From an uncultured Eubacteriales bacterium (GTDB lineage Bacteria > Bacillota > Clostridia > Lachnospirales > Lachnospiraceae), in assembly GCA_900319355.1 (NCBI GenBank), contig ONOC01000024.1, positions 1 through 50,678 of the forward strand: a stretch of 50,678 nucleotides of DNA, read 5' to 3'. Position numbers and translations under genes: made by a program. The notes under the pieces were generated by a model. The model did no database searches. It was not told the origin of the DNA and was given only the letters and a program-made list of their open reading frames with translations. How positions within the stretch are numbered: the stretch's first letter is position 1; each line of letters opens with the position of its first letter. Positions 4,413 to 37,236 of the stretch are shown in pieces.

Positions 4413-5490
4413 ATGGAACAGTTTATGAACCGTTCGACCAATATAGTTCCGTTCGGCTACGAATGGCTGTACCTTGAAATCAATCTGTTCTGCGTGGCGC
4501 TGCTGGGCATGATGCTTTTTACTTCATGGAGGTACTACAGGCAGAAATATGCCGGAAGGGTATTTCCTGAGTATCACATCGATGTGTTACCTCTGGATGT
4601 ATTACACCGTCATCAGCCTGTTCGGCAACAGGACGCAGGTGCGCAGGAAACTGAAGAGGGCATCTGTTCTGGGCTTTGCCGAGATTTTTCTCCTGATCTT
4701 CAACTGGGTGATACCGGTGCTTTTCAGCGCGAATGCCGCGGGCAGATATTTCAGGGGACCGCTCTTTGTTTTCCAGTACATGTTCGGGTATGTCTATGCG
4801 GTCACCGCGGGCTTCATTGCCTTTCAGAGATCTTTTTCGGAAGAACAGTATGCGGACCGCAGGGAACTCAGGTTATTTGCGGCCTATCCGGTGGCGCCGG
4901 CCGCATCGGGGATCATTCAGTTTTTTGTACCGTTTCTTCCGACACTGTGCTGTGTGATTACCGTGCTGGTCATGGGTATTCATCTGAGAATGTACAGTGA
5001 GATGATCTCACTGGATCCGCTGACCCAGCTGAACAACCGCCGCCGCTTTTTCCTGAAAGTCAGACAGAAGGACAATGCAAGAGACAGATCGCTGACGTAC
5101 TGGATTCTGATGATGGATATCGATTTCTTCAAGGAAATCAATGACAGGTACGGGCATCCCGAGGGCGACCGCGCCCTGAGACTGACGGCGGATGCCGTAA
5201 CCCGGGCAGCCCAGAGCATGAAGCACAGGGCCGTCATTGCAAGATACGGCGGCGATGAATTCATCCTCTTCGTCGAAACGGAAAAGGACGAAGAGATCAG
5301 CAGACTGCGCACCGGAATAGAAAATGAGATAACGGAAGTTCAGAAAACTGAGAAACTTCTCTATCAGCTGAAGCTTTCCATCGGCAGCAGGAAGTGGGAG
5401 GAAGGCGAGCCCCTTTCGAGGACAATAGAGGCAGCGGACGATGCTTTATACGAGGTGAAAAGAAAGCATCATACAGACCGGCAGAGGTGA
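4413..5490 (+). pseudogene. Membrane diguanylate cyclase (GGDEF), probably frameshifted or internally deleted
   Basis: The first part (frame of 4413) codes a start and one membrane helix (LEINLFCVALLGMMLF). The rest (frame of 4549) codes further membrane helices and a complete GGDEF domain: DPLTQLNNRRRF, MDIDFFKEINDRYGH and RYGGDEF. In related multi-helix GGDEF proteins about 35-40 more residues, including a second helix, sit between these two parts. Here the frame changes near 4549-4560 and that helix is absent, suggesting an out-of-frame deletion. The RxxD inhibitory site normally just before RYGGDEF is not present. The downstream part alone (4549-5490, 313 residues, ATG start) might still be translated as a shortened cyclase making c-di-GMP. 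It follows the two small genes and is closed by a terminator at 5661. Confidence 0.6.
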
Positions 5491-5775: not shown

Positions 5776-7260
5776 ATGAAGAATTTAAGGGATCTGATGG
5801 CACAGACTGACTGTGAACTCGTGCAGGGAAATGCCGATATTGCCATCAGTGATATCGTTTATGATTCGAGGAAAGTGACGGATGGCTGTCTGTTTGTCTG
5901 CCTGAAGGGCGCGGTCTCCGACGGACACCGCTTTGCCGGAGATGCCGCTGCGAAGGGCGCAGCCGCGATTCTGGTACAGGATAAGGTCGAAGTACCGGAA
6001 CATGTGGCGGTGGTGCGCACGGACAACACGCGCCGCGCGCTGTCACTCATGGCGCAGTACTGGTTTGATTTTCCGGCGAAGAAGCTGAAGACCATCGGAA
6101 TCACAGGCACCAAGGGCAAGACGACCACGAGTTACATGATTCAGTCAATCCTTAACGCGGCCGGCCACCGCTGCGGTCTGATCGGCACGATTGAGGCCAT
6201 TACCGGAAAGAGAACTGTTCCGGCAGAGAATACGACACCGGAATCCTGGCTGATTCAGGAATACATGTCGGAGATGGCAGAGTCCGGCTTTGACAGTGTC
6301 GTGATGGAGGTTTCCTCTCAGGCACTGAAGATGGACCGCGTCGCGGGCATGACCTTTGATTTCGGCATTTTCACGAACATTGCACCCGACCACATCGGTC
6401 CGAATGAGCACAGCAGTTTTGAGGAATACCTGGAATGCAAGAAGAAGCTGCTCCGTCAGTGCAGGATCGGCGTGGTGAACAGGGATGATGCCCGTTATGA
6501 AGATATTGTCAGCGGCAACACCTGTGAAATTCTGGAGACTTACGGATTCGCAGAGGAAGCAACGCTCCGTGCGGTCAATGTGACCATGCTCATGAAGCGC
6601 GGCATGCTCGGCATCTGTTATCAGACGGAGGGAATCGTGGAGATTCCGGTGGAGATTGACATCCCCGGCCGCTTCTCCGTCTACAATTCCCTGGCCGCGA
6701 TCGCCGTCTGCCATCACTTCGGCGTGTCGCCGGAAAATATCATGGAGGCGCTGACACATGCCAGGGTAAAGGGACGGGTCGAGATGGTCAGAATCTCCGA
6801 CAAATTTACCCTGATGATCGATTACGCGCACAACGCCATGGCGCTGGAGAGCCTGCTCTCCACCCTGAGGGAGTATCACCCTTCCAGAATCGTGTGTCTG
6901 TTCGGCTGCGGCGGCAACCGCGACCGCGAACGCCGTTTCATGATGGGAGAAGTGTCCGGACGGATGGCTGATTTTACGATCATTACGTCAGACAATCCCA
7001 GAAATGAGGAGCCGCAGGCCATCATTGATGACATTGAGACCGGCATAAAGAAAACGGACGGTCAGTACATCAAGATCATCGACCGGAAAGAGGCCATCGC
7101 CTGGGCGATTCACCATGCGGAGCCGGGCGACATCATCGTGCTTGCCGGCAAGGGACACGAGGATTATCAGATTATCAAGGGAAAGAAGTACCCGATGGAT
7201 GAGCGCGTGCTTATCCGCGAGATTCTTGAAGAGGACAGAGCGGCCGGAAGGACGGTGTAA
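5776..7260 (+). CDS. murE: UDP-MurNAc-tripeptide synthetase, meso-DAP adding (MurE)
   Basis: A 494-residue cytoplasmic Mur ligase that adds meso-diaminopimelate to UDP-MurNAc-L-Ala-D-Glu using ATP in peptidoglycan precursor synthesis. The ATP-binding motif GITGTKGKTT spans residues 108-117. The amino-acid selectivity motif is D406-N-P-R409, which in this family marks meso-DAP rather than lysine enzymes, so the wall is predicted to be DAP-type. Length is normal. The ATG at 5776 follows GATGAGG. The stop codon overlaps the ATG of priA by one base (TAATG), indicating translational coupling. It heads the long operon that continues to thiN. Confidence 0.96.
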   Translation: MKNLRDLMAQTDCELVQGNADIAISDIVYDSRKVTDGCLFVCLKGAVSDGHRFAGDAAAKGAAAILVQDKVEVPEHVAVVRTDNTRRALSLMAQYWFDFPAKKLKTIGITGTKGKTTTSYMIQSILNAAGHRCGLIGTIEAITGKRTVPAENTTPESWLIQEYMSEMAESGFDSVVMEVSSQALKMDRVAGMTFDFGIFTNIAPDHIGPNEHSSFEEYLECKKKLLRQCRIGVVNRDDARYEDIVSGNTCEILETYGFAEEATLRAVNVTMLMKRGMLGICYQTEGIVEIPVEIDIPGRFSVYNSLAAIAVCHHFGVSPENIMEALTHARVKGRVEMVRISDKFTLMIDYAHNAMALESLLSTLREYHPSRIVCLFGCGGNRDRERRFMMGEVSGRMADFTIITSDNPRNEEPQAIIDDIETGIKKTDGQYIKIIDRKEAIAWAIHHAEPGDIIVLAGKGHEDYQIIKGKKYPMDERVLIREILEEDRAAGRTV

Positions 7261-31778: not shown

Positions 31779-31894
31779 GAGGAGCGGATGCCGCTGATGA
31801 AAATGACCGGGTATGTACGTATAAAGAATGGCCGGTGCCGCAGCGCGGAGCTGAAAGAAGAAAGCACCGGGAAGAACAGGAGATACGACAGATT

Positions 31895-32419
31895 ATGGAT
31901 ATGGGAAGAAATTCTAAATTCAAGGACGGCATCCGCATCGCAGCTGCGGTCTATCTGATTTATCTGGCAGTGGAAATCATTCAGGACGGACTGATCGGCG
32001 GACAGATGCAGGGAAAAATGAGGATCGTCGGCATCATTGCCGTGATCGGTTTCATTGCCTTCGGCGTTGTGGTTTCCATCTGGTCAGTGAAGGACCTGAT
32101 GAAGATGGACGAAGAAGAAAAAACAGAGCAGGCAGAGCAGGCGTCCGGAGAGGCAGAACCGGGAGATACAGCGCCCGGAGAGGCGAAACCGCAGGATACA
32201 GAATCCGGTGACGGGAAATCCGCAGCGGCCGGATCCGGAGATGAGAAATCCGGCGGGGCGGAATCCGGAGAAGAAGGATCCAAAGAGCGGGAATCTGCAC
32301 AGGAACCGCAGAATAAAACGGAAGCACCGCAGAAAAAGAGCGCTGCCGGCACGGATTCACCGAAAAGCATCTATGAGCGCGCCATGATGCATACCGGCAG
32401 TGAAGAGGATAAATCGTAA
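31895..32419 (+). CDS. Small membrane protein with acidic low-complexity tail
   Basis: A 174-residue protein with two membrane helices (about residues 14-29 and 42-62, IVGIIAVIGFIAFGVVVSIW) followed by a roughly 100-residue Glu/Gly/Ser/Ala-rich tail of degenerate short repeats (SGEAEPGD, PGEAKPQD, SGDGKSAA, SGDEKSGG). A short conserved-looking end SPKSIYERAMMHTG follows. ATG 31895 is used, with AGGAGA 11 bases upstream; ATG 31901 is possible. I do not recognise a family. It lies behind the esterase and is closed by a terminator, so it may belong to the same transcript. Confidence 0.65.
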   Translation: MDMGRNSKFKDGIRIAAAVYLIYLAVEIIQDGLIGGQMQGKMRIVGIIAVIGFIAFGVVVSIWSVKDLMKMDEEEKTEQAEQASGEAEPGDTAPGEAKPQDTESGDGKSAAAGSGDEKSGGAESGEEGSKERESAQEPQNKTEAPQKKSAAGTDSPKSIYERAMMHTGSEEDKS

Positions 32420-33752: not shown

Positions 33753-34220
33753 ATGAAATTATCGACAAGAGGAAGATACGGACTGCGGGCTCTGATCGAT
33801 ATTGCCGCGCATCAGGATGAGGGTGCGGTATCCGTGCAGAGCATCGCACGGCGGCAGGCAATTTCCGAAGGGTATCTGGAGCAGCTGATACGTCTGATGA
33901 AAAAGGGCGGCCTGGTCGTCAGTGTCCGCGGTGCCGGCGGAGGATACAGAATCGCACGGCCGGCGGAAGAAATTTCGGTCGGAGATATTCTGCGATGTCT
34001 GGAAGGAAGTCTGGAGGCCGTGGAGTGTCCGGCACTGGATGGCAGCGACTGCAGCGCGGCTGACGAATGCGTCACCAAGTTTGTATGGGACAGAATCAAC
34101 CGTGCCATTGCAGAAGCTGTGGATTCCGTCATGCTTTCCGAGCTTGTGGAGGAAAGCAGAAAGCTGAAGGTGTCGCCGGAGGCAGAAATCATCAGAAAGG
34201 AGCAGAGCATCCGCCCGTGA
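33753..34220 (+). CDS. Rrf2-family transcriptional regulator, IscR-like
   Basis: A 155-residue winged-helix regulator. MKLSTRGRYGLRALIDIA is the family N-terminus, and residues about 28-68 form the helix-turn-helix and wing (ISEGYLEQLIRLMKKGGLV, GAGGGYRIARP). Three cysteines, C92, C100 and C106, sit where IscR carries its iron-sulfur ligands, although the spacing differs slightly. It lies directly upstream of a cysteine desulfurase, the usual target and source of its cluster. It probably senses Fe-S status and represses the downstream genes. Name kept general because CymR-type relatives share the fold. Confidence 0.88.
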   Translation: MKLSTRGRYGLRALIDIAAHQDEGAVSVQSIARRQAISEGYLEQLIRLMKKGGLVVSVRGAGGGYRIARPAEEISVGDILRCLEGSLEAVECPALDGSDCSAADECVTKFVWDRINRAIAEAVDSVMLSELVEESRKLKVSPEAEIIRKEQSIRP

Positions 34221-34285: not shown

Positions 34286-36097
34286 ATGCTGATATACCTT
34301 GATAATGCTGCAACAACAAAAATGGCACCGGAAGTCCGTGAAGCCATGCTTCCCTGGCTGACCGAAAAGTTCGGCAATCCGTCGGCAATCACGAGACCCG
34401 GAGAAGACGCAAAGGATGCGGTGGCGAAAAGCCGCAGACAGACGGCGGCACTGATCGGTGCCGAACCGGAGGAAATCTATTTTACATCCGGCGGAACGGA
34501 GTCGGACAACTGGGCGCTGACGGCTGTTTTTGACAGGATGTGCAGAAAAGGGCGTCATATCATTACGACGGCCATTGAGCATCCGGCGATCCTCAGGACC
34601 TGTGAATATCTGGCGCAGACGAGAGGGGCGAAGATCACAGTTCTTCCGGTAGACAAATACGGTTATGTACGGCCGGAGGACGTGGAAGCTGCCATAACGG
34701 ATCAGACGATTCTGATCAGTGTCATGACGGCCAACAATGAGATCGGTACCATTGAGCCGGTCCGGGAGATTGGAAAAATCGCCCACAGCCATGGCATTCT
34801 GATGCACACCGATGCCGTTCAGGCATTCGGCCAGATTCCTGTCAGCGTGAAGGAACTGAATGTGGATCTGCTCAGCGCCAGCGGCCATAAGCTGAACGGA
34901 CCTCAGGGTACGGGAATCCTTTATATCAGGAAGGGATTAAAGCTCGGCGCACTGATTCACGGAGGCGCGCAGGAACGTAACCGGCGTGCCGGAACGGAAA
35001 ATGTTCCCGGTATCGTCGGACTCGGGGCGGCGGCGGAAAGAGCCGCCAGACGTCTTCCTGAAAAAATCAGAAAAGAGACGGAACGCCGGGATTATCTGAT
35101 CCGGAGAATCAGGGAGGAAATCTCCCACGTTCATCTGAACGGTCCGGACCCGTGCCGGGACGATGATTTTTCCGGAAAGGAAAAATCAGACCCGGAAGAG
35201 AATAAGGCGGCTCAGGAAGAACTCACCCGGGAGGACAGAGATCTGCTGACCTTTACCCGGGAGGAGAGGGAATATTTTCACTTTCCCGAAGAGAACGGGG
35301 CACAGCCGGAGGAGGAAGACTTTGCGGAAGAATTCCGCGATGATTTCTTCAGTAAAAAAGCACCGGAGGCGTCGGATGACGATTTCAGGAAGAGCTGCCG
35401 TGAATCTTTCCGTCAGGAACAGAAAGACGTTCCGTCCTGGGAAAAGCATTTCCTGTCCGGCGTAAATAAAAAAGAAGAAAAAACAGCCGCCGCGGGGGTC
35501 TCAAGAGCCGAATCGTACACCAGAGCCATGTGGGGACTGGACGACGGCAGCGGACCGGATCGCTCTGATGCGGGAAATCACATGACAGAATGGCGTTCCG
35601 GAGCTGCAGGAAAGGCAGAAGACACGCGCACCGGCGCGGGCGGATGGACCGGCGGGACGGCAGAACCCCGGAAAAACGGAGCCGTCACGGATGGAAACCC
35701 GGCCGGACGGCAGCCTCAGGAAACAGAATCAGCGCAGCCTCAGCAGGCCGCAGAAAAGAATCAGCCGCCGAGACTTCCGAATAATGTCAATTTCAGTTTT
35801 GAATTCACGGAAGGGGAATCCCTGGTGATCATGCTTGATATGAAGGGCATCGCCGCGTCTTCGGGCTCCGCGTGTTCTTCAGGGTCACTGAGCCCTTCTC
35901 ATGTGCTGAAGGCTGTCGGTCTGTCCGATGATCTGGCGCAGGGCGCGGTGAGATTCACCCTTTCGGAGGATACCACGGAAGAAGAACTGGACAGGACCGT
36001 GGACGTGCTGAAAACATCCGTGGAACGGCTGCGCGGTATCTCCACCAATTTCGACGCATACCTGCAGGGCATCCGTCCGTCGGAGACCGGATCATAA
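34286..36097 (+). CDS. Cysteine desulfurase (NifS/IscS class) with a large acidic insertion
   Basis: A 603-residue PLP enzyme that takes sulfur from cysteine for tRNA thiolation or Fe-S clusters; normal length is about 380-400. The first part is standard: IYLDNAATTK start, H99 in AIEHPAIL, K202 in SASGHKLNGPQG (PLP lysine) and HGGAQERNRRAGTENVPG. After HLNGPDP the fold is interrupted by about 206 acidic, Gly/Ser/Gln-rich residues (about 290-495). It then resumes with RLPNNVNFSF and the catalytic C530 in SSGSACSSGSL. ATG 34286 fits the family start, while GTG 34271 is also possible; neither has a clear ribosome site. mnmA follows without an iscU gene between. Activity is expected because every catalytic residue remains. 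Confidence 0.9.
   Translation: MLIYLDNAATTKMAPEVREAMLPWLTEKFGNPSAITRPGEDAKDAVAKSRRQTAALIGAEPEEIYFTSGGTESDNWALTAVFDRMCRKGRHIITTAIEHPAILRTCEYLAQTRGAKITVLPVDKYGYVRPEDVEAAITDQTILISVMTANNEIGTIEPVREIGKIAHSHGILMHTDAVQAFGQIPVSVKELNVDLLSASGHKLNGPQGTGILYIRKGLKLGALIHGGAQERNRRAGTENVPGIVGLGAAAERAARRLPEKIRKETERRDYLIRRIREEISHVHLNGPDPCRDDDFSGKEKSDPEENKAAQEELTREDRDLLTFTREEREYFHFPEENGAQPEEEDFAEEFRDDFFSKKAPEASDDDFRKSCRESFRQEQKDVPSWEKHFLSGVNKKEEKTAAAGVSRAESYTRAMWGLDDGSGPDRSDAGNHMTEWRSGAAGKAEDTRTGAGGWTGGTAEPRKNGAVTDGNPAGRQPQETESAQPQQAAEKNQPPRLPNNVNFSFEFTEGESLVIMLDMKGIAASSGSACSSGSLSPSHVLKAVGLSDDLAQGAVRFTLSEDTTEEELDRTVDVLKTSVERLRGISTNFDAYLQGIRPSETGS
35153..35770 (+). other. Insertion segment inside the cysteine desulfurase
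   Basis: This in-frame stretch codes the extra ~206 residues. It is rich in Asp/Glu and in Arg/Lys near the start, with near-repeats LTREDRD / FTREERE and DDDFSGKEK / DDDFRKSCRES. It turns Gly/Thr/Gln-rich toward the end. Two cysteines (in DPCRDDD and KSCRES) are the only ones. It has no recognisable domain and no flanking repeats. Confidence 0.85.
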
Positions 36098-36150: not shown

Positions 36151-37236
36151 ATGAGTGATAAGAAAACGGCAGTAGTCGGCATGTCGGGCGGTGTGGATTC
36201 ATCGGTCGCAGCATATCTGCTCAAACAGCAGGGGTACGAGGTGATCGGCGTGACCATGCAGATCTGGCAGGAGAAGGACGGCGTCACGGCGGAAAGGGAA
36301 GGCGGCTGCTGCGGCATATCCGCTGTAGACGACGCGCGCCGCGTGGCGGAAGTCATCGGTATTCCCTATTATGTGATGAATTTCCGTGACATTTTCAGGG
36401 AAAAGGTCATGGATTACTTTTCTGCCGAATATCTGAAAGGGCGGACGCCGAATCCCTGCATTGCCTGCAACCGGTACGTCAAGTGGGAGGCGCTTCTCAG
36501 AAAGAGCATCGCCATCGGAGCCGACATGATCGCAACCGGGCACTATGCCAGGATCAGAAAACTGGAGAACGGGAGGCTCGCGATTGCGGGCTCTGCTACG
36601 GAGGCAAAGGATCAGACATACGCACTGTACGGTCTGACGCAGGAACAGCTCGCCCATACCATTCTCCCGATCGGAGACTATGACAAGCCCACCGTCAGAA
36701 AAATCGCCGAAGAAGCCGGACTCCCCGTGGCACATAAGCACGACAGTCAGGAAATCTGCTTTATCCCGGATGACGACTATGCGTCCTTCGTAGAAAAAGA
36801 TACCGGCGTTCATCTGCCGGAGGGAAATTTCGTCACAAAGGACGGCAGAATCCTCGGCCGGCACAGGGGCATCATCCACTATACCGTCGGACAGCGGAGA
36901 GGACTCGGGCTGCCGATGGGAGAACGGGTCTTTGTGACACAGATCCGACCGGAGACAAACGAGGTTGTCATCGGAGGCGCGGAGGATGTCTGCACAGACA
37001 CCGTCCGTGCGGATCATCTGACCTTCATGGGCATTCCGGATCTGCCCTTCGGCCATCCGGAGCGCTTCATCGGAAAAATCCGTTATAATCACCGCGGTGC
37101 GGCCTGTACGGCGGAAAGAACCGGGGACGATGAAATAACCTGTGTGTTCGACAGTCCGGTCAGGGCGCCCGCGCCGGGTCAGGCACTCGTGCTTTACCGG
37201 GACGGATGGGTAGCCGGCGGAGGTATTATAAAGTGA
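36151..37236 (+). CDS. mnmA: tRNA-specific 2-thiouridylase MnmA
   Basis: A 361-residue enzyme that activates U34 of tRNA-Glu, -Gln and -Lys with ATP and inserts sulfur. The PP-loop motif is SGGVDSS (residues 12-18 region). The two sulfur-transfer cysteines are C103 (NPCIACNR) and C203 (QEICFIPD). The C-terminal beta-barrel is complete, so length is normal. The ribosome site is weak (AAAGAGA) and built from the tandem repeat upstream. It follows the desulfurase by 53 bases, a context that implies direct sulfur supply from it to MnmA. A tRNA-Glu (TTC) substrate gene lies at 28115. Confidence 0.95.
   Translation: MSDKKTAVVGMSGGVDSSVAAYLLKQQGYEVIGVTMQIWQEKDGVTAEREGGCCGISAVDDARRVAEVIGIPYYVMNFRDIFREKVMDYFSAEYLKGRTPNPCIACNRYVKWEALLRKSIAIGADMIATGHYARIRKLENGRLAIAGSATEAKDQTYALYGLTQEQLAHTILPIGDYDKPTVRKIAEEAGLPVAHKHDSQEICFIPDDDYASFVEKDTGVHLPEGNFVTKDGRILGRHRGIIHYTVGQRRGLGLPMGERVFVTQIRPETNEVVIGGAEDVCTDTVRADHLTFMGIPDLPFGHPERFIGKIRYNHRGAACTAERTGDDEITCVFDSPVRAPAPGQALVLYRDGWVAGGGIIK

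Follow-up and report, generated by a model that had tools for sequence, protein, structure and literature searches.

We find that a class I (NifS/IscS-type) cysteine desulfurase of an uncultured Lachnospiraceae bacterium carries 206 additional residues in a loop of its small domain, and that this insertion, as far as sequence comparison can tell, is the extreme of a lineage-specific, hypervariable loop series. The gene lies in a stretch of 50,678 nt (contig ONOC01000024.1 of assembly GCA_900319355.1), here called the window, and its features are collected in Table 1. We favor, as a probable reading of the whole, that the protein is a YrvO-like enzyme dedicated to MnmA, in which a disordered loop expansion has been tolerated after the loss of NifU. 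The case is a clear example of a conserved enzyme that has accommodated an insertion roughly half as long as itself.

Table 1. Features of the desulfurase gene (positions in the window)
Feature	Position	Strand	Remark
Class I (NifS/IscS-type) cysteine desulfurase gene, 608 aa	34271..36097	+	GTG start; alternative ATG at 34286
PLP lysine codon, K207 (SGHK motif) = IscS K206	34889..34891	+	Alignment to E. coli IscS
206-residue insertion, residues 295-500, small-domain loop after LNGPDP	35153..35770	+	Exact bounds, from alignments
Acidic, F/W-containing first part of insertion, residues 295-396	35153..35458	+	Charge table
G/A/T/Q-rich second part of insertion, residues 397-500	35459..35770	+	Composition
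Catalytic cysteine codon, C535 = IscS C328	35873..35875	+	Alignment to E. coli IscS
D553 = IscS 346	35927..35929	+	In or beside docking patch
N593 = IscS 386	36047..36049	+	In or beside docking patch

The original prediction of a NifS/IscS-type enzyme with intact catalytic landmarks is borne out by a Pfam Aminotran_5 (PF00266) match of 268.6 bits, by matches to the NCBIfam NifS model TIGR03402, and by alignment to E. coli IscS (taken from NC_000913.3), on which both the PLP lysine and C535, the latter within SSGSACSS, find their counterparts. A motif of the SSGSAC type holding the catalytic cysteine is described as a mark of class I cysteine desulfurases (PMC8300815). The TIGR03402 match reaches 517.1 bits for the whole protein, in two stretches of which the best covers residues 8-293, and lies just below the curated cut-off of 530.75, which leaves the protein outside this equivalog. 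The core is 51-65% identical to that of 41 relatives, only part of which are nifU-linked.

Inserted between GPDP and RLPNNVNFSF are 206 residues in one open frame, with bounds exactly where they had been placed from the sequence, and the change from an acidic start (25 D/E versus 10 K/R in residues 295-362) to a Gly/Thr/Gln-rich spacer, richer in G/A/T/Q from about residue 397, is likewise confirmed. In the alignment to E. coli IscS the insertion follows G291, ends before PNILNVSF, and enters 37 residues upstream of the catalytic cysteine (IscS Cys328). As the small domain of IscS comprises residues 1-15 and 264-404 (PMC2854127), the point of entry is within this domain and not, as first proposed, in a surface loop before it. 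Both ends of the loop join the small domain at adjacent points of the alignment, which would leave room for a disordered chain whatever its length. Such disorder is probable from the composition of the insert, which has 17% order-promoting residues versus 32% in the core, and from its charge-hydropathy balance, by which it plots as disordered; the 9-residue loop of the congener G011 plots as ordered.

The insertion looks real, and not just a product of chance. Its open frame (206 codons, 618 nt) was kept in 338 of 20,000 first-order Markov shuffles (1.7%), and the synonymous codon score of this frame, 0.109, is the best of the six, the other five scoring 0.080 or less. This score is within the range (0.093-0.224) of the 22 other genes of the window, from which the codon reference was also built, and the same holds for the GC3 of 0.578; GC1 (0.646) and GC2 (0.485) lie above the window-gene ranges (0.512-0.629 and 0.354-0.444), as expected from the unusual amino-acid make-up. 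An error of assembly or sequencing, or a chimeric join with foreign DNA, might be suspected since the long form is found in one genome, a draft of 131 contigs that is 87.8% complete. We consider this very improbable, as the 618 nt are in frame on both sides with gene-like codon use, in-frame insertions occur at the same loop in five of the seven other orthologues from the nifU-less group of the genus, and the insert is unmatched in phages, plasmids and the rest of the genome. It had been foreseen that the prediction would fail if close relatives lacked the segment and the assembly were at fault. The first part stands in so far as the nearest relative, G005, has 36 residues instead of 209 at this loop, but there is no sign of an assembly error, because five congeners have in-frame insertions at the same point.

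Searched alone, the insert gave no match in Pfam, NCBIfam, PHROGs or the PDB, which rules out a discrete known domain and agrees with the expectation that nothing similar would be found among curated families. A mobile origin was rejected as well, since searches of 50,697 phage records and 72,556 plasmid records gave no match at E 0.1, and so was a copy of another gene, since the insert matches only itself in its own genome. Among the 397 genomes of the family it has, besides itself, three weak matches (E 0.00025-0.0067, 29-40% identity), two of which contain stops, and we have treated all three as compositional. The near-repeats noticed earlier (LTREDRD/FTREERE and DDDFSGKEK/DDDFRKSCRES) do not stand out: the best protein self-match was equalled in 61 of 300 shuffles and there is no tandem array, so that a tandem-repeat expansion can be dismissed. 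At the DNA level, a 15-nt near-repeat lies inside the insert (35649-35663 and 35699-35713, 14 of 15 identical), and 2 of 60 Markov shuffles gave one as good. An intein was rejected too, as the end motifs typical of inteins are absent from the insert. A literature search returned no report of such a desulfurase insertion, which does not in itself prove that none is in print.

The nature of the insertion becomes clearer from its relatives. Counted from LNG to RLP, the loop of the present protein has 209 residues, and in the other members of the nifU-less group it has 4 (G009 and G007), 9 (G011), 10 (G002), 16 (G004), 36 (G005) and 56 residues (G014, in a gene cut by the contig end). G005 is 71% identical to the present protein. 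The congeners G003, G010, G013 and G015 have a loop of 4; no clear orthologue was found in G001, G006, G008 and G012, with a weak C-terminal match in G001 and none in the other three. The six long loops (9-209) have only their PDP start in common, and those of different species differ in sequence, length and charge. Homology of the insert to the G005 loop was rejected, the DNA score being attained by 110 of 300 randomisations. Nor is there a general tendency to insertions, since NifS alone among 14 window proteins has an internal indel of more than 4 residues relative to G005; the largest internal indels in other proteins were 8 relative to G002 and 13 relative to G009 in the same comparison. 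The insertion is thus the end of a series that runs from 4 to 209 within one group of the genus, and not a discrete new domain.

In the best 80 loci from named relatives, largely Lachnospiraceae, a set that leans to close relatives because only the best were kept, the loop has 4 residues in 74, 5-7 in five and 16 in one, the last being Eubacterium sp. UBA4343, probably the same genome as G004. Our first search of the 397 family genomes ranked whole-gene matches, so that split genes sink and may go unlisted; with the pre-loop part as query (283 genomes matched), the frame of 619 here was the sole one longer than 467 among about 150 rows listed, and the three frames of 466-467 (G376, G261 and G244) each match in one unbroken piece in the first search. 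A quick tree of 142 rows, computed with SH-aLRT supports and no bootstrap, pairs the present protein with G005 (99) and groups the other long-loop species with G009 (97). The long-loop state therefore needs two changes, either two separate expansions or a single one that was later lost in G009.

The gene directly downstream of the desulfurase, at 36151..37236 (+), is from its motifs one that we take to be mnmA, encoding the tRNA 2-thiouridylase, and the upstream gene at 33753..34220 (+) presumably encodes an Rrf2/IscR-type regulator. MnmA starts 54 nt past the end of NifS, and no nifU lies between the two, which sets the protein apart from the members of NifS-NifU pairs. The order XerD-Rrf2-NifS-MnmA-GapA-Pgk-Tpi is conserved in those congeners with long enough contigs. 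Among 147 nifS loci, some genomes contributing two, nifU directly follows nifS in 108, and there the loop has 4 residues in 104, 5-6 in four and more in none. mnmA follows nifS within 400 nt without nifU at 20 loci, of which 11 (from six genomes) have loops longer than 8 residues, one has 7 and eight have 4. The remainder comprises 14 loci with neither neighbor and five cut by a contig end. Every long loop observed is thus found in a nifU-less gene directly followed by mnmA, but the converse fails: the absence of nifU is not sufficient for expansion, as loops of 4-7 residues persist in G007, in G009 and at five loci outside the genus that are likewise mnmA-direct.

The wider complement of sulfur-transfer genes differs between the genomes of the genus. 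As grouped here (16 genomes), the Fe-S assembly system switches within the genus: in four genomes a strong NifU match (171-177 bits) adjoins nifS and the sole SufB/D-type match is weak, 11 have a strong SufB/D pair and a NifU_N match of just 40-70 bits, and G001 has neither a strong NifU nor the SufB/D pair. The source genome holds a NifU_N match of 68.5 bits beside SufS, and another below the cut-off; the 68.5-bit match is the last gene of a SufC-SufB-SufD-SufS-SufU run in which SufS carries the motif RxGHHCA. A second desulfurase is encoded directly upstream of a ThiI-like ORF (L169 3186-5636, contig 85 of G000), an arrangement resembling that of NifZ and ThiI; the names SufC and ThiI in this genome are tentative assignments from sequence.

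These gene contexts resemble one well-described system. In Bacillus subtilis YrvO and MnmA suffice for the formation of s2U, and yrvO is commonly located directly upstream of mnmA (PMC5372745; PMC5372739). By gene layout the present enzyme is like YrvO, as it is encoded directly upstream of mnmA in a genome with SUF and with a separate desulfurase beside a ThiI-like gene, and as the TusE family is found in none of the 16 genomes of the genus while TusA, over the cut-off in 8 of the 16, stays below it in the source genome and G005. Since this layout resembles the division of labor in B. subtilis, the enzyme is most likely dedicated to MnmA, judging from gene order and missing partners, and we would regard the feature as a YrvO-like desulfurase with an extreme loop expansion, rather than a new domain. 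A difference is that the available text of PMC5372745 and PMC5372739 mentions no such loop for YrvO. With the NifS proteins of NifS-NifU pairs from Lachnospiraceae and other Clostridia it shares an orthologous core and, in many of them, an upstream Rrf2 gene, but NifU is absent here, the loop has 209 residues instead of 4-6, and the residues at IscS positions 346 and 386 differ. E. coli IscS likewise has its PLP lysine and catalytic cysteine at aligned positions and an Asp at 346, but it is a hub enzyme for IscU, TusA and ThiI with a short loop (292-297) and Leu at 386, where the present protein has a long loop and N593.

According to the reading we favor, the ancestral desulfurase would have worked with NifU, and the neighboring nifU was presumably lost in this group of the genus, in which the SUF system could build Fe-S clusters. 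The core would act as a normal desulfurase, whose cysteine persulfide sulfur would be passed directly to MnmA for tRNA 2-thiouridine. After the loss of nifU the 4-residue loop would have grown in several species of the group, here to 209 residues; the inserted chain would project into the solvent while the core folds and works normally around it. The insert may then be mainly a tolerated, fast-changing appendage, with some help in holding MnmA or tRNA possible. We infer that the loss of nifU relaxed the surface and so allowed the expansion, and that the insert, of which the long form comes from one species only, is nearly neutral.

The roles first put forward for the insert, namely to recruit an acceptor, to localise the enzyme or to tune the cysteine loop, are hypothetical. 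As an alternative to a tolerated appendage, the insert could be a functional tether, in which the acidic arm binds MnmA through short F/W helices, or competes with tRNA on the basic face of MnmA, and so holds the acceptor near the cysteine loop in place of partner docking. The adjacency of mnmA and the lack of TusE and of a TusA over the cut-off would suit such a role, as would the acidic first part, where the mean helical moment (residues 295-406) was reached by 9 of 1000 shuffles in one of 13 such tests and gives a hint of helix-forming motifs. A precedent for binding exists in the encapsulin-cargo desulfurase CyD, which has a disordered N-terminal domain of 225 residues with a proven binding role (PMC8049743). 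Still, the strongest single helix is at chance level (140 of 1000 shuffles), neither sequence, length nor charge of the loop is conserved from one species to the next, a loop of 4 residues is enough for G009 and G007, and the net charge of MnmA is not raised (-5 here, -1 to -13 in nine of ten others and +1 in G005). We regard a tether, the main rival to our reading, as unlikely.

CyD (NCBIfam NF041166) is also the example that comes to mind for a localisation signal, being a known desulfurase with a disordered targeting segment of about 200 residues, similar in size to the insert (PMC8049743). The CyD segment is, however, an N-terminal shell-targeting signal, while the insert is internal, has no NCBIfam or other sequence match to it, and no family 2 encapsulin shell match (PF19307) was obtained in the source genome or the other five long-loop genomes, which places the protein outside the family 2A encapsulin cargo and makes this option extremely improbable. 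The sole shell match in the 16 genomes is a family 2 gene on contig C23 of G012 (PF19307, 319 bits, 2106-2861), which lies about 3.4 kb from a TusA-family match at 6231-6440. The arm could also be thought to act as a shield that keeps the scaffold SufU or other acceptors off the enzyme and so separates tRNA thiolation from Fe-S assembly; in favor of this, all genomes in which a long loop was observed have SUF and lack a NifU next to nifS. This seems quite improbable to us: G007 and G009 have SUF and yet a 4-residue loop, and the insertion loop does not appear among the residues of IscS that PMC2854127 lists as IscU contacts.

Those contacts, namely helix 309-316, Glu347, the end of helix 11 and helix 379-391 (PMC2854127), define a docking patch whose fate after nifU loss can be followed. 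We used this footprint with Glu347 widened to 345-349, and counted changes in columns that are conserved in 109 nifU-linked rows; removal of eight duplicate loci and three identical proteins had brought the set from 152 to 141 rows, G003, G010, G013 and G015 being assigned as nifU-linked by coordinates and G014 as mnmA-direct. In the present protein alone, 7 of 15 footprint columns were changed versus 19 of 161 others (Fisher p 0.002), in the nifU-less subclade 4 of 15 versus 15 of 161 (p 0.06), and in five other mnmA-direct rows 4 of 15 versus 5 of 161 (p 0.003). The overall enrichment separates the groups poorly, since the nifU-bearing congeners also show 4 of 15 versus 16 of 161 (p 0.07).

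Two single positions are more telling within this set. At IscS 346, His is present in 105 of the 109 nifU-linked rows and Asp or Glu in all 13 mnmA-direct rows; at IscS 386, all 109 nifU-linked rows have Leu or Val and all 13 mnmA-direct rows a polar residue. The 14 rows with neither neighbor have seven acidic residues and three His at 346. E. coli IscS, itself a partner of IscU, combines Asp at 346 with Leu at 386, so an acidic residue at 346 need not abolish docking, and as one nifU-linked row has Asp at this position too, 386 is the better marker of the two. A separate loss of nifU, nested among nifU-linked rows (support 97 and 99), is represented by L069, L071 and L075, with the same changes at 346 and 386. 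Independent losses are few, giving two to four pairs and a median sign-test p of 0.25-0.5. Position 386 may, on these alignments, be a more useful lead than the insertion.

One could go further and combine the two observations, proposing that mnmA-adjacent desulfurases that lose nifU repeatably remodel the NifU patch, chiefly by Leu/Val to polar at 386, and that in one Lachnospiraceae lineage a disordered acidic arm now captures MnmA or tRNA, as a new, relay-free routing of sulfur; this joint proposal we hold to be distinctly doubtful. Cysteine desulfurases determine the destination of cellular sulfur. As to what lets YrvO-like enzymes hand it straight to MnmA, it is stated for SufS and MnmA of Plasmodium falciparum that no conserved motif common with YrvO could be identified (PMC10219651). 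The lineage described here offers a natural series of loops between 4 and 209 residues long, in the presence or absence of NifU, plus one or two candidate specificity positions.

Two further observations concern other genes of the window. The ORF at 31835-32419 (+) encodes a small putative membrane protein whose long C-terminal tail is acidic, of low complexity and variable among congeners (the frame in G005 has 147 aa); this protein has a YxRAM motif in common with the NifS insert, probably by chance. At 4413-5000 and 4549-5490 (+) two overlapping frames, which together presumably correspond to one GGDEF-type protein, point to a possible frameshift, the N-terminal part being seemingly in another frame.
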